Of a stretch of 64,000 nucleotides of DNA, positions 9,770-17,230 are shown piece after piece. Each line of letters starts with the position of its first letter. Position 1 is the stretch's first letter. The translations under genes and the position numbers were made by a program. The DNA is from Streptomyces sp. T12 (GTDB taxonomy: Bacteria; Actinomycetota; Actinomycetes; Streptomycetales; Streptomycetaceae), in contig NZ_CP117866.1 of the NCBI RefSeq assembly GCF_028736035.1, positions 10,519,001 through 10,583,000 on the forward strand. The letters are read 5' to 3'. The notes under the pieces are model-generated. The model ran no database searches. It saw only the letters and a list, made by a program, of their open reading frames with translations, and was not told the origin of the DNA.

Positions 9770-10867
9770 TCAGGCGGCTTGGGTGGTGGCGCGGTGGGCG
9801 AGTTCCTGCCGGACCAGCGGCAGGACGTGACGGGCGTAGTCGATCGCGTCGTTGAGGGGGTCGTAGCCGCGGATCGACAGCAGGTCGCAGCCGATGTCGA
9901 CGTAGTCGAGCAGGGCCTTGGCCACCGTCTCGGGGGATCCGACCAGCGCGGTCGAGGCGCCGGCGGCGTTGGTGGCGACCGCGGGCGCGGTCCACAGGCA
10001 GCGGTCGTGGACCTCGCCCCGGTCGGCGATGTCCAGCAGCCGCTGCGAGCCGGCGTTGGCCGGGCGCCCTGTGGTGCGGTAGTGGCGCAGCAACTCGGTG
10101 TTCCTCGCCTGGTCCTTGAGCACGCCCAGCGTGCGGTGCGCCTTCTCCCAGGCCAGTTCGTCGGTCGGCGCGATGATCGGGCGGAACGACACCCAGATAC
10201 GGGGACGGGGGCGCCCGGCGGCATCCGCGACCGCGTTCACGGCGGCGATCTGCTCGGCCGTCTCCTTCAGCGGCTCGCCCCACAGCCCGAAGATGTCGCC
10301 CTGCTGCCCGCCGACCCGATAGGCGTCCTGGGAGGAGCCGCCCACCGAGATCGGGACCAGGCCGTGCACCGGCTTCACATCCGAGTAGTAGCCCTCGAAC
10401 CTGAAGTACTTGCCCGCGTGCGAGACGGGCCCGTCGGCCTGCCACACCTTCCTGAGGATCTGGATGTATTCGTCCGAACGCTCGTACCGCTCCGCCTTGC
10501 CCAGGTAGTCGCCCTCCCGGTGCTGCTCCTCGTCGCTGCCGCCGGAGATGATGTGCACGCTCAGCCGGCCGTCGCTGATCCGGTCCAGCGTGGCGAGGGC
10601 GCGGGCGGCATGGGTGGGGAAGACGACGCCCGGCCGATGGGCCAGGATCGGGCGGATCCGCTCGGTGTGGGTGGCGACGAACTGGGCGATCTGGAAGGCG
10701 TCCGGCGAGGCCGAGTGGTAGGCGACCAGGGTGTGGTCGAAGCCGCCGTCGTCCAGGGCGCGGGCGTACCTGCGCAGATGGTCCACGTCCAGGCCGGTGC
10801 GGCTCGCGGCGGCCGGACCGGACGCTCCCGCGTCGGTGTGGACGGCGCTGATGAATTCGACAGGCAT
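9770..10867 (-). CDS. ssuD: SsuD-like FMNH2-dependent alkanesulfonate monooxygenase
   Basis: The 365-residue luciferase-like protein has ISGGSDEEQHREGDYL, YERSDEYIQILRKVW and PISVGGSSQDAYRVGG, which are hallmark stretches of alkanesulfonate monooxygenase SsuD. That enzyme uses reduced FMN and oxygen to cleave the C-S bond, giving an aldehyde and sulfite. The ATG at 10867 follows AAGGAG by about ten bases. It lies between two SsuA-like genes in the operon. A reductase (SsuE type) is not encoded in the window. The exact chain length or substrate type cannot be read from the sequence. Confidence 0.85.
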   Translation of the reverse strand: MPVEFISAVHTDAGASGPAAASRTGLDVDHLRRYARALDDGGFDHTLVAYHSASPDAFQIAQFVATHTERIRPILAHRPGVVFPTHAARALATLDRISDGRLSVHIISGGSDEEQHREGDYLGKAERYERSDEYIQILRKVWQADGPVSHAGKYFRFEGYYSDVKPVHGLVPISVGGSSQDAYRVGGQQGDIFGLWGEPLKETAEQIAAVNAVADAAGRPRPRIWVSFRPIIAPTDELAWEKAHRTLGVLKDQARNTELLRHYRTTGRPANAGSQRLLDIADRGEVHDRCLWTAPAVATNAAGASTALVGSPETVAKALLDYVDIGCDLLSIRGYDPLNDAIDYARHVLPLVRQELAHRATTQAA

Positions 10868-10893
10868 GGTGCACAACTCCTTTACGGGCGCGG

Positions 10894-11865
10894 CTACTTG
10901 AGAAGGGACGTGTCGGCCGACTCCGCCACGTCGACGTTCGGGTCCAGCACGCCGATCCCGTTCATCAGGTCGGCGACGCCCTGCACCGTCCGGTTCACGT
11001 CCGGCGTGATCGGCAGGACCTTGCCGTACGCGGCGGAGGCCAGCGTCCTGGCCACGGAGGCGTCGGCCCCGTTGCGCTGCTCGATGGCCTCGGCGTAGGC
11101 GTCCTGGTGGGTGCTCGTCCACTGCAGGGCCGTACCGAGGCGCCCCAGGAAGTCGGCGAGCGCGGCCTTCTTCGACGAGTCGGCGAGCGCTGTCTCGGAG
11201 GCGTTGATGAAACCGATGCCGCTGACCCGGCCGTCCCCGCCGTCGACCAGGAGCTTGCCGCCCTGCTCCAGACCGACGGCCTGATAGACACCGAAGGTCG
11301 CCCAGACCTTGATCCTGCCGGAGGCGAACGCGGCCTGCGCGTCGGTCGGCAGCAGGTACTGGACCTCGACGTCCCGGTAGCTGAGCCCGTTCTGCTTCAG
11401 CACGTTGGCCAGCAGATACTCCGAGACGCTGCCCTTGGCCGAGGAGACGACGACCTTCTGGCCCTTGAGCTCCTTCACACTGTCGATGCCGGAGTCCTCG
11501 CGGACGACGATGCCGACATGCTTGCCGTCGTTCTTGAGGGCGGCGACGTTCTTGACCTTCACCCCACCGCTGAGCGCCTGGAGCGCCGGCAGGTCGGCGG
11601 AGTAGCCGGTGTCGGCGGCACCCGCCTGCACGGCCTGGTACAGCGGGGCCGCGCCCTCGAACTCGGCCCATTTCACCTTGTAGTCGGCGCCCTTGAGGGC
11701 ATCGGAGGCGGCGACGATCGTCTGGAGCGTCTTGGCCTGGTCGCCGATGGTGAGCGTGACCTGGCCGCCCTCGGCGGAGGCGTCCGCGGCGGCGTCCGCG
11801 CCACAGGCCGTCAGCGCCAGCAGGGCGGTGAGGCTCAGCGCGGCGGTGGCGAGTCTGCGAGTCAC
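10894..11865 (-). CDS. ssuA: SsuA-like substrate-binding lipoprotein (first copy)
   Basis: A 323-residue binding protein with a lipoprotein signal ending in LLALTACG and an NMT1/SsuA fold pattern: ADYKVKWAEFEGAAPLYQAVQAGAAD, VRED..., GQKVVVSSAKGSVSEYLL. It is the binding protein nearest the permease and ATPase genes and probably the primary one. The GTG start overlaps the stop of the ATPase gene (GTGA), implying translational coupling. It shares the family but little exact sequence with the copy at 8740-9759, so it is not a recent duplicate. Confidence 0.83.
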   Translation of the reverse strand: MTRRLATAALSLTALLALTACGADAAADASAEGGQVTLTIGDQAKTLQTIVAASDALKGADYKVKWAEFEGAAPLYQAVQAGAADTGYSADLPALQALSGGVKVKNVAALKNDGKHVGIVVREDSGIDSVKELKGQKVVVSSAKGSVSEYLLANVLKQNGLSYRDVEVQYLLPTDAQAAFASGRIKVWATFGVYQAVGLEQGGKLLVDGGDGRVSGIGFINASETALADSSKKAALADFLGRLGTALQWTSTHQDAYAEAIEQRNGADASVARTLASAAYGKVLPITPDVNRTVQGVADLMNGIGVLDPNVDVAESADTSLLK

Positions 11866-12596
11866 GAGGGGGTTCCTTCCAGAGTGCGGGTGACGCCGAG
11901 CCAGCCGAGGAGGCGGGCGCGCAGGGTGACGAAGTCGGGGGTGGTCAGGCCGCGGGGACGGGGCAGGTCGACGGTGAGCTCGTGGGCGATACGGCCCTCG
12001 TCCATCACCAGCACCCGGTCGGCGAGCAGCAGCGCCTCCTCCACGTCATGGGTGACCAGGAGGATCGCGCAGCCGTGCCGCTGCCACAGCTCGGCGACCA
12101 GCTGCTGCACCCTGCCCCGGGTCAGCGCGTCGAGGGCACCGAACGGCTCGTCCAGAAGGAGCAGTTCGGGCTCGCGGACCAGCGCCCTGGCCAGGGAGAC
12201 GCGCTGGGCCTGGCCGCCGGAGAGCGTCTTCGGCCAGACGGTCGCCCGGTCGGCGATGCCGACCTCGTCCAGCGCCTTCGCGGCGAGCGCCCGGTCGGGG
12301 CGGCCCGGCAGTCCGAGCACGACATTGCGCCACACCTTCAGCCAGGGCAGCAGCCGCGGCGACTGGAAGGCGGCACTGCGGCGCGCGGGCACCGTCACCT
12401 CGCCGCCGATCTCGTCGTCGAGCCCGGCGAGGATCCGCAGCAGCGTCGACTTGCCGCAGCCGCTGTGCCCGAGCAGGGCCACGAACTCGCCCTCGCGGAT
12501 GTCGAGATCGAGGTCGTGCAGAACGGTGCTGCCGTCGAAGGCCCGCGAAAGGCCCCTGATCTCCACACTGTTGGCCGGCTCTACGCTGTCGGTCAT
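11862..12596 (-). CDS. ssuB: Sulfonate ABC transporter ATP-binding protein
   Basis: A 244-residue ABC ATPase with Walker A GHSGCGKST (about residues 44-52), signature LSGGQAQRVSLARAL, Walker B LLLLDEPFGALD and the switch histidine in LLVTHDVEEAL. The short length and LPWLKVWRNV pattern match SsuB/TauB/nitrate-type importers. It powers the SsuC permease encoded just upstream (stop-to-start gap of two bases), at the cytoplasmic face. The start is ATG at 12596. Confidence 0.88.
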   Translation of the reverse strand: MTDSVEPANSVEIRGLSRAFDGSTVLHDLDLDIREGEFVALLGHSGCGKSTLLRILAGLDDEIGGEVTVPARRSAAFQSPRLLPWLKVWRNVVLGLPGRPDRALAAKALDEVGIADRATVWPKTLSGGQAQRVSLARALVREPELLLLDEPFGALDALTRGRVQQLVAELWQRHGCAILLVTHDVEEALLLADRVLVMDEGRIAHELTVDLPRPRGLTTPDFVTLRARLLGWLGVTRTLEGTPS

Positions 12597-12598
12597 CT

Positions 12599-13480
12599 CT
12601 ACACCTCGCCCTCGAAGTTGGCCCGCCAGGTCAGCAGCCGCCGCGACAGGATCCGTACGGCGAAGTCGCAGGCCAGGCCCAGCAGCGCGTAGACGGCGAG
12701 GCAGAGCACGATGACGTCCGTACGGAAGTACTGCTGGGCGTTGCTCATCAGGTAGCCGAGCCCCGCGTCGGCGTTGATCTGCTCGGCGAAGACGAGCGCC
12801 AGCCAGGCGGTGGACAGCGCGTACCGGAGCCCCACGAGGGCACCGGGCAGTGCGCTCGGCAGGATCACGTACTTGATCAGCCCGAGCCTGCCCAGGCCCA
12901 TCATCCGTGCGGCCTCGACGAGTTGGGCGTCGGTGGAGCGGATGCCGGCGTAGATGTTGAAGTACAGCGGGTAGGTCACACCGAGCGCGACCAGCGCGAT
13001 CTTCGGGGTCTCCTCGATGCCGAACCAGACGATGAACAGCGGGATCAGACCCACCCAGGGGATCGCCCGGAACATGCCCATCGAGGAGTCGATGACGTCC
13101 TCGCCGAGCCGGAACAGGCCGGCCGACAGGGACAGGGTCAGGGCGACGGACGCGCCGATCAGGAAGCCGATGGCGGCGCGGCGGCCCGACGCGGCGATGG
13201 CGCCGGGGAGTTCGCCGCTCTCGGTGAGTTCGACGGCCTGCTTCACGACGTCCACGGGGGAGGCCAGCACGGACTCGGGGAGGAGGCCGGTGGCCGAGGT
13301 CAGGAACCACAGCAGGACGAGGCCGACGGGGCCTGCGCAACGGCGTACGGAACGGGGGACGGCGAGGCGGCGACCGGTCTTCGCGGTGCCGCGCAGGGTG
13401 ACACGGGCAGCCGGGGTGGGCGGCTCGGGGGCGGCGGCCTGCGGCGGCAGCACCGCCGTGGCCGGCGATTTCGTCGTCAT
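12599..13480 (-). CDS. ssuC: Sulfonate ABC transporter permease
   Basis: A 293-residue membrane protein with a ~50-residue cytoplasmic N-terminus and about six hydrophobic helices. The BPD-transporter EAA loop is visible as LVEAARMMGLGRLGLIKYVILPSALPG. WVGLIPLFIVWFGIEETPKI is typical of SsuC/TauC permeases. The start is ATG at 13480 preceded by GAAGGAA. It sits in the order hydrolase, rhodanese, ssuC, ssuB, ssuA, ssuD within one minus-strand operon, which supports organosulfur import. Confidence 0.88.
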   Translation of the reverse strand: MTTKSPATAVLPPQAAAPEPPTPAARVTLRGTAKTGRRLAVPRSVRRCAGPVGLVLLWFLTSATGLLPESVLASPVDVVKQAVELTESGELPGAIAASGRRAAIGFLIGASVALTLSLSAGLFRLGEDVIDSSMGMFRAIPWVGLIPLFIVWFGIEETPKIALVALGVTYPLYFNIYAGIRSTDAQLVEAARMMGLGRLGLIKYVILPSALPGALVGLRYALSTAWLALVFAEQINADAGLGYLMSNAQQYFRTDVIVLCLAVYALLGLACDFAVRILSRRLLTWRANFEGEV

Positions 13481-13496: not shown

Positions 13497-14339
13497 TCAG
13501 GACGGCAGTGGACCGGTCGCGGCCGGGCGGGCGGGATCGGCTGACCAGGCGGACCAGGAGCCGGGGAAGAGCACCGCCTCGAAACCGGCGATCTCCAGCG
13601 CGGCGATCTGGTGGGCGGCGGTGACTCCGGAGCCGCAGTACACCCCGATGCGCGAGGCCCTGCCCGCCCCCTTGTCCTCGAACCGCTTGCGCAGCTCCTC
13701 GGGCGGCAGGAAGGTCCCGTCGGCCGTGAGGTTCTCGCCGGTGGGCGCGCAGACCGCACCGGGGATGTGCCCGGCCCGCGGGTCCACCGGTTCCACCTCG
13801 CCGCGGTACCGCTCGGCCGCCCGCGCGTCCAACAGCAGCCCGGACACGGCGAGTTCGGCAGCGCCATCGGCGTCGACGGTCGGCAGCGCGCCCTCGTTCA
13901 GTACGACGTCCCCGGGCGGTGGGTCGGCCGGCACGCCGGACTCCAGGGGCAGTCCGGCGGATCGCCAGGCGCCGAGCGCTCCGTCGAGGAGCGTCACCCG
14001 GGTCAGGCCGGCGTGGCGCAGCAGCCACCAGGCTCGGGCCGCCGCCGTGTTGCCCGAGTCGTCGTGGACCACGACCCGTCGGCCCTGCCGGATGCCCCAC
14101 CTGCGGGCCGCTTCCTGCAGGTCCTCGGCCCGCGGCAGCGGATGCCGTCCGCCTTCCGGGCTCGGCGGCGCGGCCAGTTCCGTGTCGAGATCTACGTACA
14201 CCGCGCCCGGGATGTGCCCCGCGGCGTAGTGGTCGCGTCCCCGCGGATCGCCCAGCGCCCAGCGGACGTCGAGCACGACGGGGGGCTCGTCGGAGGCGAG
14301 CAGCGTGCGCAGCTCCGGGACCGTTGTCGTCACACCCAT
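13497..14339 (-). CDS. Two-domain rhodanese-type sulfurtransferase
   Basis: A 280-residue tandem rhodanese. The N-terminal inactive domain includes VVLDVRWALGDPRGRDHYAAG; the C-terminal domain holds the active-site loop VYCGSGVTA with the persulfide-forming cysteine, followed by GFEAVLFPGSWSAWSADP. The CGSGVTA loop is characteristic of 3-mercaptopyruvate/thiosulfate sulfurtransferases. These move sulfane sulfur to thiol acceptors or cyanide. Within this operon it may handle sulfane or thiosulfate intermediates. The start overlaps the end of the hydrolase gene by ten bases. Confidence 0.85.
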   Translation of the reverse strand: MGVTTTVPELRTLLASDEPPVVLDVRWALGDPRGRDHYAAGHIPGAVYVDLDTELAAPPSPEGGRHPLPRAEDLQEAARRWGIRQGRRVVVHDDSGNTAAARAWWLLRHAGLTRVTLLDGALGAWRSAGLPLESGVPADPPPGDVVLNEGALPTVDADGAAELAVSGLLLDARAAERYRGEVEPVDPRAGHIPGAVCAPTGENLTADGTFLPPEELRKRFEDKGAGRASRIGVYCGSGVTAAHQIAALEIAGFEAVLFPGSWSAWSADPARPAATGPLPS

Positions 14340-15040
14340 GCCAGGCCCTCCGCGATCTCGGGCAGCTCGGGGGACAGCCGCAGCCGCTCCAGGAACAGCA
14401 CGACGGTCGCGGCGACCGTGCGGTGCAGCGCGTCGTTGAGGACGTCGTGCCGTCCGCCGTCGAACGTCACCGTCCGGACACCCGCGTGCCCCGCGTACGC
14501 GTCCAGCGCCCGCTCGACGGGGCTCACTGTGTCGTCCTTGCCGTGCAGGGCGAGTACGGGAACGCGCACGCGGTCGAGGCGCAGTTCGGGGAGGTCGGGG
14601 TTCTCGTCGAGGGCGCCGCGCCGGAAACCGGCGTCACCGGTCAGGCGCCCCTGATGGGTGGGGCAGGCGGTGCGGGCCTCGACTTCGGCCTCCCAACTCC
14701 CCGCTGCCCAGCGGGCGGTGGGCAGACCGGCCAGGATCAGCGCGTCGACGCCTGCTTCCTGCTCGGCGGCGAGATGGGCGGCGTACCGCGCACCCGTGTC
14801 CGAACCGACCAGCACCTTCGGACCGGGCAGCGACTCGTCGGCGAGCAGCTTCGCCGCCTGTTCGAGCACGGACGGGTCGGTGGTCGGGTCGCCGAGCGCG
14901 CGGACCCGGTAGGCGTCGAAGGCGAGGCGGCGGCCGAACCGCTCGTACACAGCGCCGTGTTCACCCCGGCCGGCCAGCACGATCAGCGTGCCGCGCGCGG
15001 CGAGGCCTTCGGGTTCGTCCCAGGAGAAGGATGAGGACAT
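14330..15040 (-). CDS. Alpha/beta hydrolase with Asp at the nucleophile elbow
   Basis: A 236-residue alpha/beta-hydrolase-fold protein. The elbow reads VLVGSDTGARYAA, giving G-x-D-x-G, so the nucleophile position holds Asp rather than Ser; the acid is likely in LHGKDDTVSP and the base is His in GGRHDVLND. Asp nucleophiles occur in haloalkane dehalogenases and epoxide hydrolases of this fold, although overall the protein looks more like a small lipase/acyl hydrolase. It is the first structural gene of the organosulfur operon, preceded by GGGAG and by the cysteine-rich leader. Its reaction is unknown. Confidence 0.72.
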   Translation of the reverse strand: MSSSFSWDEPEGLAARGTLIVLAGRGEHGAVYERFGRRLAFDAYRVRALGDPTTDPSVLEQAAKLLADESLPGPKVLVGSDTGARYAAHLAAEQEAGVDALILAGLPTARWAAGSWEAEVEARTACPTHQGRLTGDAGFRRGALDENPDLPELRLDRVRVPVLALHGKDDTVSPVERALDAYAGHAGVRTVTFDGGRHDVLNDALHRTVAATVVLFLERLRLSPELPEIAEGLAWV

Positions 15041-15175
15041 GAGGGGGCAGCTCCCGTTTCTGGGCAGGGGGCATCCGGGGGAAGGGGAGGGGAAAAGGGC
15101 AGCCGAGAGCGCCCGTCACGGGTCAGTGCGCAGACGACGTGAGCGACTCGGACTACAGGGGGAGGAGGCCGGACG

Positions 15176-15262
15176 TCAGCAACAGCGCGCGCTGCACGCC
15201 ACGCCGAAGTCGATGACTCGGCGCTGCGTCAGAAGGGCAGCGGAAGCGGTGGCGTGCAGCAT
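15176..15262 (-). CDS. Cysteine-rich leader peptide (28 aa), sulfur operon
   Basis: A short open frame starting at ATG 15262 encodes a peptide containing TQRRVIDFGVACSARCC directly before its TGA stop. This matches the style of the putative leader peptides that precede sulfur-assimilation genes in Streptomyces and mycobacteria, where a basic stretch, an [IV]-D-[LF] motif and terminal cysteines recur. Three Cys codons (positions 23, 27, 28) would make ribosomes stall when charged cysteinyl-tRNA is scarce. It lies 135 bases upstream of the first structural gene. The first in-frame ATG was chosen; an in-frame stop lies just upstream. No strong ribosome-binding site is visible, so it may be translated from a near-leaderless transcript. 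Confidence 0.72.
   Translation of the reverse strand: MLHATASAALLTQRRVIDFGVACSARCC
15191..15260 (-). promoter_or_regulatory. Leader-internal inverted repeat, candidate attenuator
   Basis: GCTGCACGCCAC (15191-15202) and GTGGCGTGCAGC (15249-15260) are perfect 12-base complements. In the minus-strand mRNA they join the first codons of the leader peptide (bases just after the ATG) to codons 21-24, which include the first Cys codon. A ribosome moving through, or paused at, the Cys codons would open or keep this stem. Downstream (15041-15175) lies a GC-rich and pyrimidine-rich tract but no clear classical terminator with a U-run. The rest of the gap to 15365 holds the divergent promoter region. 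Confidence 0.55.
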
Positions 15263-15326
15263 GCGCTCATCATGACCGGACGCGGCGGATCACGTCCAAC
15301 GACGATTCCGCATCGAAACCGATCAG

Positions 15327-15338
15327 CGATCGCGATCG
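15327..15338. promoter_or_regulatory. Palindrome in the LysR/leader divergent promoter region
   Basis: CGATCGCGATCG is a perfect 12-bp palindrome, flanked by further GATC/CGAT steps, 27 bases upstream of the LysR start and about 65 bases upstream of the leader ATG on the other strand. Its position between a LysR gene and its presumed divergent target makes it a candidate operator. The T-N11-A form typical of LysR sites is not proved here. Confidence 0.4.
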
Positions 15339-15365
15339 ATCGCCGGGCCGGGCTACTGTCACGGC

Positions 15366-16220
15366 ATGCCCCAACCCGTCCTCGACATCGTGGCCCTGCG
15401 CAGCCTGACCGCGATAGCCGACTGCGGCGGCTTCCACCGCGCCGCCCGGACGCTCTGCCTGAGCCAGTCCGCGGTCAGCCAGCACGTGCGCAAACTGGAG
15501 AAGACCCTGGGGCGTCCGGTCGTCGAACGCGACGGCCGTGGCACCCGGTTCACCCCCGAAGGGCGCCTGCTGCTGGAACAGGCCCGCCGCATCCTCGCCG
15601 TGCACGACGAGGCCGTACGCGCACTGCTCGACGCCGAGGGCGACACCGTCACCGTCGGCTCCACCGAGCACGCCGCCGACCAGTTCCTGCCCCGGCTCAC
15701 CGCCGCGGTCCAGCGGGTGCGCCCCGGCTGCCGGGTGCGGTTCCGGATCGACCGCTCCGCCCGGCTGGTGGAGGCCGTGGAACGCGGCAGCGTCGATGTC
15801 GCCGTGTACGTCACCGAGGCCGCCGCCACCGAGGGCACCCCCGTCGGCGGCCTCCCGCTCACCTGGCACGCCGTCCCCGGCTGGGCACCCCCGTCCGCCC
15901 CCGCTCCGGTACCGCTGGTCGCCGTCGAGGAACCGTGCGCGATCCGCCGCCGGGCCATCGCCACCCTCGCCAGGCACGGAGTGCCCGCCACGGTCGTCGG
16001 CGACGCCGGCTACCTCGCGGGCGTCCTCGACATCGCCCGCACCGGCCAGGGCGTGGCCCTGCTCGCCTCGGTCGGCGCCGCGCCGGACGGACTCACCCCG
16101 TACGAGGGCCTGCCACCCGTCACCCCGATCCCGATGAGCGCCCTCGCCCGCCCCGGCGCAGACCTGGCGACGACCGAGGCCGCCGTCAGCGCCGTACGGG
16201 AACTGCTGCGCCAGGAATGA
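15366..16220 (+). CDS. LysR-family transcriptional regulator of the organosulfur operon
   Basis: A 284-residue LysR protein. The N-terminal winged helix-turn-helix is clear (ALRSLTAIADCGGFHRAARTL, then LSQSAVSQHVRKLEKTLG). The C-terminal effector domain is present and of normal length (VTVGSTEHAADQFLPRLTAAV). It is transcribed divergently from the leader/sulfonate operon, the usual arrangement for LysR activators such as CysB/Cbl-type sulfur regulators. The effector is unknown; O-acetylserine, sulfate, or a sulfonate are reasonable candidates by analogy only. The ATG at 15366 is chosen because translation from it gives the full HTH. Confidence 0.85.
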   Translation: MPQPVLDIVALRSLTAIADCGGFHRAARTLCLSQSAVSQHVRKLEKTLGRPVVERDGRGTRFTPEGRLLLEQARRILAVHDEAVRALLDAEGDTVTVGSTEHAADQFLPRLTAAVQRVRPGCRVRFRIDRSARLVEAVERGSVDVAVYVTEAAATEGTPVGGLPLTWHAVPGWAPPSAPAPVPLVAVEEPCAIRRRAIATLARHGVPATVVGDAGYLAGVLDIARTGQGVALLASVGAAPDGLTPYEGLPPVTPIPMSALARPGADLATTEAAVSAVRELLRQE

Positions 16221-16378: not shown

Positions 16379-17230
16379 TTGAGGGTCGTCCTGCTCGGCA
16401 CCGCCGCCGGAGGCGGTTTCCCACGCTGGAACTGCGCCTGCGCGCGGTGCGCCGCCGCCCGTGACGGCAAGCTGCCCGCCCGCACCCCGGAATGCGCCGC
16501 CGTCACGGGCAACTCCCGCGACTGGTGGCTGCTCAACACCTCGCCGGACATCCGCGCCCGGCTCACCGCCACCTCCGCCCTGTGGCCGGGCCCCGGGGCC
16601 ACTCCGGTACGGGGCGTGCTGCTGACGGACGCCGAGGCCGATCACGTGTCGGGCCTGGCCGTGCTCCGCGAAGCCGCGCGGCTCAAGACCTACGCCGCCC
16701 CGCCGGTGCTCGACGCGCTGGCACCGGCGCGGGCGGCCCTCGACCGCCACGCCCCGTGGGAGTGGGCGGACAGCCTGACGGAGGGCGGGTTCGTGCTGTC
16801 CGGCGGCCTGGTGGTCACGGCGCGTCCCGTCGCGGGTGAGGCGCCGGTTCACGTGCCGGGCCGGGCGAAGGACGACCGCTGGGTGACGGCGTACCGCATC
16901 GAGGATCTGGCCACCGGAGGCGTCTTCGTCTACGCGCCGCGTGTGCGTGCGTGGACCCCGATGCTGGAGGACCTCGTCGCGGAGGCGGACTGCGTCGTAC
17001 TGGACGGCACGCACTTCGCGGCGGACGAGGCGGCGCAGGCCGGCCGCCATGTGCCCGTCTCGGGACCCGAAGGCAGCCTCACTGCCCTGACCCGCCACCC
17101 ACAGGCCCGGCGGATCTACACCCACCTGGCCGACACGAATCCCCTGCTCGACCCCGCCTCGGCGGCCCGCACGCAGGTGATCGAGACGGGCGCCGAAGTC
17201 CTCCCGGACGGGGCCGAGTTCGTGCTCTAG
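16379..17230 (+). CDS. pqqB: PqqB-like metallo-beta-lactamase-fold protein
   Basis: A 283-residue protein that begins with VLLGTAAGGGFPRWNCACARC, the PqqB signature including the CxCxxC zinc site. The later LLTDAEADHVSGL matches the degenerate HxHxDH region of PqqB, followed by LREAARLKTYA and YTHLADTNPLL. PqqB belongs to the metallo-beta-lactamase fold and hydroxylates the Tyr of the PqqA precursor peptide during PQQ synthesis. No pqqA, pqqC, pqqD or pqqE occurs in the window, so this is an orphan copy here. The likely start is TTG at 16379 behind GGGGGA; the codon choice is uncertain. A different oxidative function is possible. Confidence 0.75.
   Translation: MRVVLLGTAAGGGFPRWNCACARCAAARDGKLPARTPECAAVTGNSRDWWLLNTSPDIRARLTATSALWPGPGATPVRGVLLTDAEADHVSGLAVLREAARLKTYAAPPVLDALAPARAALDRHAPWEWADSLTEGGFVLSGGLVVTARPVAGEAPVHVPGRAKDDRWVTAYRIEDLATGGVFVYAPRVRAWTPMLEDLVAEADCVVLDGTHFAADEAAQAGRHVPVSGPEGSLTALTRHPQARRIYTHLADTNPLLDPASAARTQVIETGAEVLPDGAEFVL

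Follow-up and report, generated by a model that had tools for sequence, protein, structure and literature searches.

What is the role of a short, cysteine-ended reading frame that stands ahead of sulfur-related genes in Streptomyces sp. T12, and how could its translation be coupled to the genes behind it? The window considered here is the whole stretch of DNA that was analysed, 64,000 nucleotides long. Translation of its minus strand at this place gives MLHATASAALLTQRRVIDFGVACSARCC*, a Cys-rich frame of 28 residues, exactly as the initial annotation had described. Its comparison of the frame to the Cys-ended leader peptides found ahead of sulfur genes in mycobacteria is also supported, both by conservation of the peptide across orthologues and by the sulfur-related genes that follow it. 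As far as the sequence can tell, the peptide is very probably the cysteine-sensing leader of a hydrolase-sulfurtransferase-ssuCBA-ssuD operon (Table 1). Genes of this operon were labelled '-like' because their NCBIfam equivalogs scored below curated cut-offs, the Pfam domains being over threshold. No Rfam family matched in the window at gathering thresholds, and a plasmid search with positions 15041-15300 gave no match.

Table 1. Features of the leader region and its operon, in window coordinates.
Feature	Position	Strand	Basis
SsuD/SfnG-like flavin monooxygenase	9770..10873	minus	Pfam Bac_luciferase; NCBIfam matches below cut-off
SsuA-like binding protein	10894..11865	minus	Pfam NMT1; TIGR01728 160 bits, cut-off 163.5
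SsuB-like ATPase	11862..12620	minus	Pfam ABC_tran; NCBIfam match below cut-off
SsuC-like sulfonate permease	12599..13423	minus	Pfam BPD_transp_1; NCBIfam match below cut-off
Rhodanese / 3-mercaptopyruvate sulfurtransferase-like	13497..14339	minus	Pfam Rhodanese; NCBIfam match below cut-off
Alpha/beta hydrolase, operon gene 1	14330..15040	minus	
Leader-to-gene gap, 135 nt, rich in C and poor in G; putative region of Rho-dependent attenuation	15041..15175	minus	
Hydrolase Shine-Dalgarno, GGGAG	15051..15055	minus	GGGAG in 44/51 loci
Conserved block CTGACMCGTGAC in gap	15115..15126	minus	
Leader peptide frame, 28 codons	15262-15176	minus	Translation and orthologues
Closing helix of consensus hairpin, 3' arm, codons 27-28, with two UGU bases	15179..15183	minus	Consensus fold
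Codon 27, Cys UGU, nine residues past Asp, putative sensor codon	15182..15184	minus	
12-bp stem, 3' arm, codons 21-24 (leader bases 61-72)	15191..15202	minus	
Codon 23, Cys UGC, within the 12-bp stem; Cys not conserved	15194..15196	minus	
Codons 14-18, Arg-Arg-Val-Ile-Asp motif	15209..15223	minus	Orthologue alignment; also family motif
Closing helix of consensus hairpin, 5' arm, codons 4-5	15249..15253	minus	Consensus fold
12-bp stem, 5' arm (leader bases 3-14, beginning at G of ATG)	15249..15260	minus	
-10-like CATGAT, 19 nt from TTGGAC, 6 nt before ATG	15269..15274	minus	
-35-like TTGGAC within conserved AATCRTCGTTGGACG block	15294..15299	minus	Near-invariant in 37 aligned Streptomyces-type loci; present in divergent orthologues
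LysR-type regulator, divergent from the leader operon	15366..16220	plus	

A search with the hydrolase yielded 80 fetched loci, and the 600 nt upstream of each (461 nt in L083) were inspected for a frame that contains LTQRR and has Cys towards its end. Such a leader was found upstream of 39 of the 80 hydrolase relatives, including all 38 whose hydrolase identity was at least 66%; these 38 comprise 36 Streptomyces-type loci and two from Actinacidiphila, and the 39th leader belongs to one Pseudonocardia. By the same LTQRR and Cys-end criteria, the remaining 41 loci, with more distant hydrolases, gave no leader. LTQRRV[IV]D...C is preserved in the leaders of Actinacidiphila and Pseudonocardia. Searched for as DNA, LTQRRx[IV]DFG had a single match in each of 21 of 295 genomes of the genus, the window's own among them, and the hydrolase survey and pattern search combined gave 51 distinct leader loci, the window counted. 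Arg14, Arg15, Val16 and Asp18 each occur in 39 of 40 leaders; codon 17 encodes Ile in 37 and Val in two, and the residue after codon 27 is Arg in 35. L052 is out of register at codons 14-18, yet carries the same motif. Five divergent orthologues (L041, L043, L092, L105 and L052) have leaders of 44 to 58 residues, and the leader of L029 is one codon shorter with an unchanged promoter-to-ATG spacing. Shared ancestry among the loci weakens all of these and the following locus comparisons.

When searched against NCBIfam, the window peptide matched no family at E <= 1, and two orthologue variants matched none at E <= 10. Putative Cys leaders of actinobacteria are modelled in the database by NF042934 (cis_reg_atten), which has two relatives, NF042933 (Ms5788A) and NF042936 (Ms4527A), named for M. 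smegmatis loci whose layout is common to the window leader. Two surveys of the class found NF042934 in 23 of 30 genomes and in at least 80 of 108; in a phylum-wide draw it was present in four of five class members and in one of 55 others (L142, a partial match). The genome of the window has 11 such places at E <= 0.001, 10 of them over the cut-off; in a scan of the same genome at E <= 10 (150 of 364 candidates scored), the place of the leader itself is absent. Because the curated 27-bit cut-off was tested and the window leader stayed below it, we did not file the leader under NF042934. A home-made family profile, from 86 peptides picked by motif, gave the window peptide 12.0 bits (E 0.0075) and its orthologues 6.2 to 16.6 bits; on stop-to-stop frames, the leader frame ranked first of 1070 window frames with 10.9 bits, the next one scoring 6.4. 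The leader also has the RRxxD-x8-Cys layout near its stop codon, with UGU, a rule derived here and not NCBI's. It shares with NF042934 the motif, the D-x8-C spacing and the UGU sensor codon, whereas its stretch from Asp to Cys reads FGVACSAR and not, as in most members, LxRxxSAx. Judged by these features, the window leader appears to be a divergent relative of the NF042934 actinobacterial Cys leaders, and public models would miss part of the Cys-leader class.

The genes behind 10 of the 11 NF042934 places in the same genome were scanned (chosen by script, L112 being left out); at L001, L003 and L111 the gap is 245-400 nt and the scanned gene is possibly not the nearest. Eight of the ten match NCBIfam at E <= 1e-10 and two have no family. 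Cysteine synthase, SfnG and the SsuA family were found over the cut-off, and sulfite/nitrite reductase, SsuC, sulfurtransferase, sulfatase-type and NtaA/DmoA-type monooxygenase below it. This repertoire fits one common cysteine signal acting on many sulfur operons of the genome. Four Cys leaders lie within about 24 kb (C1:9628082-9651610), which suggests a cluster of sulfur genes in which several operons are gated independently. In one family leader of this genome, L110 (C1:9647248-9647298), Ser AGT replaces the sensor Cys and the frame runs longer; this leader has possibly decayed.

The leader start is preceded by promoter-like elements at a fixed distance. CATGAT, CACGAT or CATCAT followed by exactly 6 nt and ATG was matched by regular expression at 46 of the 51 loci, and a -10-like hexamer with the same 6 nt before ATG was read by eye at the other five, which are divergent. 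As the conserved -35 and -10 elements end 6 nt before the ATG, a leaderless mRNA is predicted, which would start at or adjoining the AUG. Two overlapping ATGs, at 15273 and 15270, would thus precede the transcript start. An overlapping small frame on the minus strand, MMSACCTPPLPLPF (15229-15273), has two Cys near its start (by eye); it begins upstream of the predicted transcript start and is probably not expressed. Leaders of the NF042934 family have a comparable arrangement, YANNNT being found 5-8 nt before an in-frame start in 43 of 62, against 6, 4, 6, 8 and 0 of 62 when the same test was applied at five shifted positions.

A new regularity concerns the Cys codon nine residues past the Asp of the motif (D+9), which is codon 27 in the window leader. 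This codon is UGU in all 51 window-leader orthologues. In a first set of NF042934 family leaders, from which L132 (a frame without a nearby stop) was left out, it is UGU in 36 of 38, the two exceptions being AGU and CGU, while the other Cys codons of that set are 35 UGC and 7 UGU (n=42). A second set of 70 further loci has 69 UGU and 1 UGC at D+9, against 69 UGC and 14 UGU among its other Cys codons (n=83; Fisher P 5.5e-28, a value that overstates the case because related loci are not independent, although the contrast lies within the same leaders). The two sets are not wholly independent, as five of these 70 loci come from a genome also in the first set (G013); the other 65, from new genomes, consist of loci from two surveys and of the best 40, by E-value, among further matches listed. 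UGU thus stands at D+9 in 156 of 159 leaders (36/38, 69/70 and 51/51), and it makes up 27 of the 153 Cys codons of coding-like ORFs in the window. At the Arg, Val, Asp and Leu codons of the motif, synonyms interchange among family leaders. UGU codon 27 is probably the sensing codon.

Since one tRNA decodes both UGU and UGC, differences in charging between isoacceptors would not account for the bias towards UGU; the speed of decoding, an effect of the nascent chain or a need at the RNA level would. It is conceivable, though we hold it somewhat short of probable, that actinomycete Cys leaders are codon-specific sensors resembling arrest peptides, in which a single disfavoured UGU nine residues past Arg-Arg-x-x-Asp, and not a Cys run, sets the pause. 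If so, the window leader would show the rule holding where the peptide has otherwise diverged beyond public models. The near-invariant UGU offers a sharp and cheap test of how one Cys codon reports tRNA charging.

Behind the leader, the gap to the hydrolase gene has a C minus G value of 0.26, against a control mean of 0.03 (sd 0.096; 37 upstream regions, two of which reach 0.2 or more). Composition averages C 0.46 and G 0.21 across 44 loci; the leader is followed by the C-rich, G-poor untranslated stretch sought as a mark of Rho-dependent attenuation. Two blocks of the gap, one CTGATCACGTC-like and the other CTGACACGTGAC, are conserved. The CTGATCACGTC-like element, at 15136-15146, lies by eye about 19-35 nt from the CTGACMCGTGAC block, and both could be RNA or DNA-binding sites.

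Comparison among loci shows a conserved peptide, a predicted leaderless promoter, an invariant UGU and sulfur-related genes downstream; that the peptide is translated, that ribosomes stall on it, what its motif does and what the regulatory output is are inferred from them. The explanation that best covers the whole, and which on balance we favour, is a leaderless cysteinyl-tRNA sensor in which a ribosome stalled at UGU27 blocks premature termination. A ribosome would initiate on the 5'-terminal AUG of the leaderless transcript and, with cysteinyl-tRNA scarce, pause at UGU codon 27, probably aided by the nascent Arg-Arg-x-x-Asp, which would then lie 9-13 residues back in the exit tunnel (codon 27 in the A site). 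The paused ribosome would mask the last part of the leader together with the first part of the C-rich gap, so that premature termination, most likely Rho-dependent, would be blocked and the sulfur operon transcribed. With ample cysteine, the ribosome would finish and depart, the leader RNA would refold and transcription would stop early. Among possible outputs, Rho-dependent attenuation is a tentative choice, made from base composition.

In the tna operon of E. coli, free tryptophan is sensed through the nascent TnaC peptide. The logic proposed here is similar, in that a ribosome stalled near the leader stop codon blocks Rho; the difference is that tna senses free tryptophan, whereas the window leader would sense tRNA charging. 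Candidate Cys leaders have been described in Mycobacterium, P. acnes and B. longum, and the passages concerned propose Rho for the mycobacterial ones on similar grounds, noting that the motifs are not conserved and calling the prediction weak (Seliverstov et al. 2005; PMC1262725). Like the window leader, those described in these passages are Cys-ended, stand before cys genes and have no clear terminator, with a pyrimidine-rich gap as suggested Rho sites; unlike it, the Cys cases given there do not include Streptomyces. In the part of the S. lividans reannotation that deals with leader peptides, eight are given and none is assigned to cysteine (PMC8079986). Through the window leader, a sulfonate/sulfurtransferase operon joins those Streptomyces genes for which control by a leader is likely.

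Polycysteine short ORFs, themselves leaderless, reportedly bring about Cys-responsive attenuation in mycobacteria. They are cited in passages of PMC13236596 and PMC9094748, the former of which also describes their mechanism. The window leader resembles them as a short, predicted-leaderless frame with Cys near its end, standing before sulfur genes and presumably responding to cysteinyl-tRNA. It differs in having only CC at its end and no Cys run, for which reason it was not classed as a polycysteine attenuator, and in that its RNA, according to predictions, hardly pairs with the downstream Shine-Dalgarno. This last point bears on translational attenuation as in mycobacteria, by which the stalled ribosome would free the hydrolase Shine-Dalgarno from a sequestering structure, and which we consider unlikely at this locus. 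Accessibility was analysed at 44 of the 51 loci, the seven without GGGAG being left out, and the Shine-Dalgarno is predicted to be mostly paired there (mean accessibility 0.11); however, its mean pairing probability is 0.02 with the leader and 0.62 with the gap, and removal of the region held by the stalled ribosome changed accessibility by -0.004, with a rise in 19 of the 44 loci. Release of the Shine-Dalgarno by a stalled ribosome was rejected, simple thermodynamic models giving no effect on accessibility at these loci.

Codon choice in the leader is unevenly constrained. Between the window and 36 orthologues, synonymous differences occur at 40 of 163 identical-residue codons (24.5%) for codons 2-7 and at 23 of 704 (3.3%) for codons 8-28, the hydrolase gene having a mean of 27.4%. 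Codons 8-28 (15179-15241) thus differ synonymously eight times less often than those of the hydrolase gene, and conserved rare codons are seen in this leader body: GCT, CTT and CGA make up 2.8%, 2.1% and 5.0% of the codons for their own amino acid in window ORFs. The predicted energy of the body lies slightly below that of re-coded versions in 11 of 11 loci tried (z -0.38 to -1.71), none significantly, and that of the full leader gave z -0.07 to -2.62 in six loci. On these slight body scores, the idea that RNA structure dictates the choice of codons was rejected. As the stability of the body is not significant, structure leaves the synonymous constraint of codons 8-28 unaccounted for; the constraint exceeds what the peptide needs, and the cysteine-sensing model does not account for it.

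A consensus fold obtained with RNAalifold consists of a long hairpin, closed by a helix between codons 4-5 and codons 27-28. Over its 27 pairs, 97.5% of cells are paired. Of 500 shuffles, 1 attains this level, 2 attain the covariation score and 162 the number of pairs changed on both sides. GC/AU exchanges occur at 10-84 and 12-82. On a hydrolase tree of 42 of the 45 loci (L013, L015 and L026 had no anchor), the changes at 12-82 coincide beyond random placement (P 0.005) and those at 10-84 do not (P 0.27), these values being uncorrected with six pairs looked at. Most other pairs never vary and are therefore uninformative, and the window itself has a mismatch in one of the five closing-helix pairs. 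The long hairpin may be kept as a weak lead.

Alternative pairings are seen in the sequence and in predicted folds, bases 21-26 of the leader having possible partners at 36-41 and at 68-73. They could be read as classical attenuation, in which the gap would hold an intrinsic terminator and the leader would take part in an antiterminator. The pairing level of the consensus hairpin and the uniformly lower energies of the leader body would agree with this, as would the conserved CTGACACGTGAC block, which is followed by short hairpins and sometimes by CCCTTTT. The hairpins after the block are however weak and differ from locus to locus (40 loci, -2.3 to -11.6 kcal/mol over 34 nt), only one of the two covarying pairs co-changes on the tree beyond chance, and the body scores are individually not significant, so that we find this reading doubtful. 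An intrinsic terminator after the block was set aside, no consistent hairpin having been found in the 40 of 51 loci that have it (eleven without the block were left out).

Equally doubtful is the proposal that the leader is mainly an RNA element, in which the D+9 UGU is preserved for pairing or for another RNA motif and not for decoding speed. The synonymous constraint on the leader body speaks for it, as do the two non-Cys exceptions of the first family set, which remain NGU, and the window locus, where U of UGU is paired within the consensus helix. Over 103 family loci, however, the third base of the D+9 codon pairs with A at a mean probability of 0.38; its overall pairing (0.62) is below that of the third bases nearby (0.73), and in only 36 of these loci does UGU give the more stable version. 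RNA pairing as the explanation of UGU was rejected on the pairing of this base in these loci.

The initial annotation had gone further and proposed that RNA just after the AUG pairs with codons 21-24 and hides the start, a ribosome at the Cys codons switching this stem, possibly in an autoregulatory manner. The complementarity that it described is real: leader bases 3-14 can pair without a mismatch with bases 61-72, the first Cys codon included. When the leader was shuffled 20,000 times with its dinucleotides preserved, two shuffles had 12 perfect base pairs between their first 30 and last 42 bases. Given the exact pairing and its rarity in shuffles, the observation is right and chance is unlikely for this single sequence. 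The stem dominates the predicted fold of the window leader, which is more stable than its dinucleotide shuffles (z -3.08, with 0 of 200 equally stable) and, less markedly, than re-codings with the window's own codon usage (z -1.95, with 18 of 500 equally stable). A contiguous core of at least 7 bp persists in the same register in 24 of 39 distinct sequences, and 81.1% of cells are paired against 16.7-57.8% for slid versions, a bias to be expected of a structure drawn from one of the sequences.

As a control element, the stem does not stand up to comparison. Among 34 distinct 28-codon Streptomyces leaders, the full 12 bp occur in two, the window and L039, and 11 have at most 8 of the 12 Watson-Crick pairs (L029 and the five divergent orthologues are omitted from these gapless counts). 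As many as 151 of 500 shuffles pair as well and 80 of 500 reach the covariation score; compensatory changes between the two arms, sought in related leaders, did not exceed those in shuffles, a result close to what the initial annotation had named as refuting its proposal. The 5' arm drifts at the synonymous rate of the hydrolase gene while the 3' arm sits in the near-fixed body, and from these unequal rates it follows that the 3' arm is kept for other reasons. The five divergent orthologues form at most 6 bp between the start region and the Cys end, their start being 43-53 codons away from the sensor Cys. At codon 23, where the stem has its Cys, two loci encode Ser and two Asn, the invariant Cys being codon 27. 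The consensus hairpin is itself an alternative to the stem. Orthologue pairing, covariation, slides and synonymous rates led us to reject the stem as a control element notwithstanding the persistent 7-bp core; a start-hiding switch is very improbable, and the 12-bp stem is best explained as a coincidence at the level of the strain, superimposed on a constrained leader body.

Upstream of the leader promoter, the divergent LysR-type gene has an apparent leaderless start of its own, TACTGT being followed by 6 nt and ATG (15354-15366, plus strand; by eye). The protein encoded further along the plus strand at 16379-17230, starting MRVVLLGTAAGGGFPRWNCACARC, is presumably PqqB-like. Between the LysR gene and the leader promoter, window positions 15304-15343 are strongly conserved and partly palindromic (GCGATCGATCGCGATCGCTGATCGGTTTCGATGCGGAATC), and this stretch is possibly a LysR operator.
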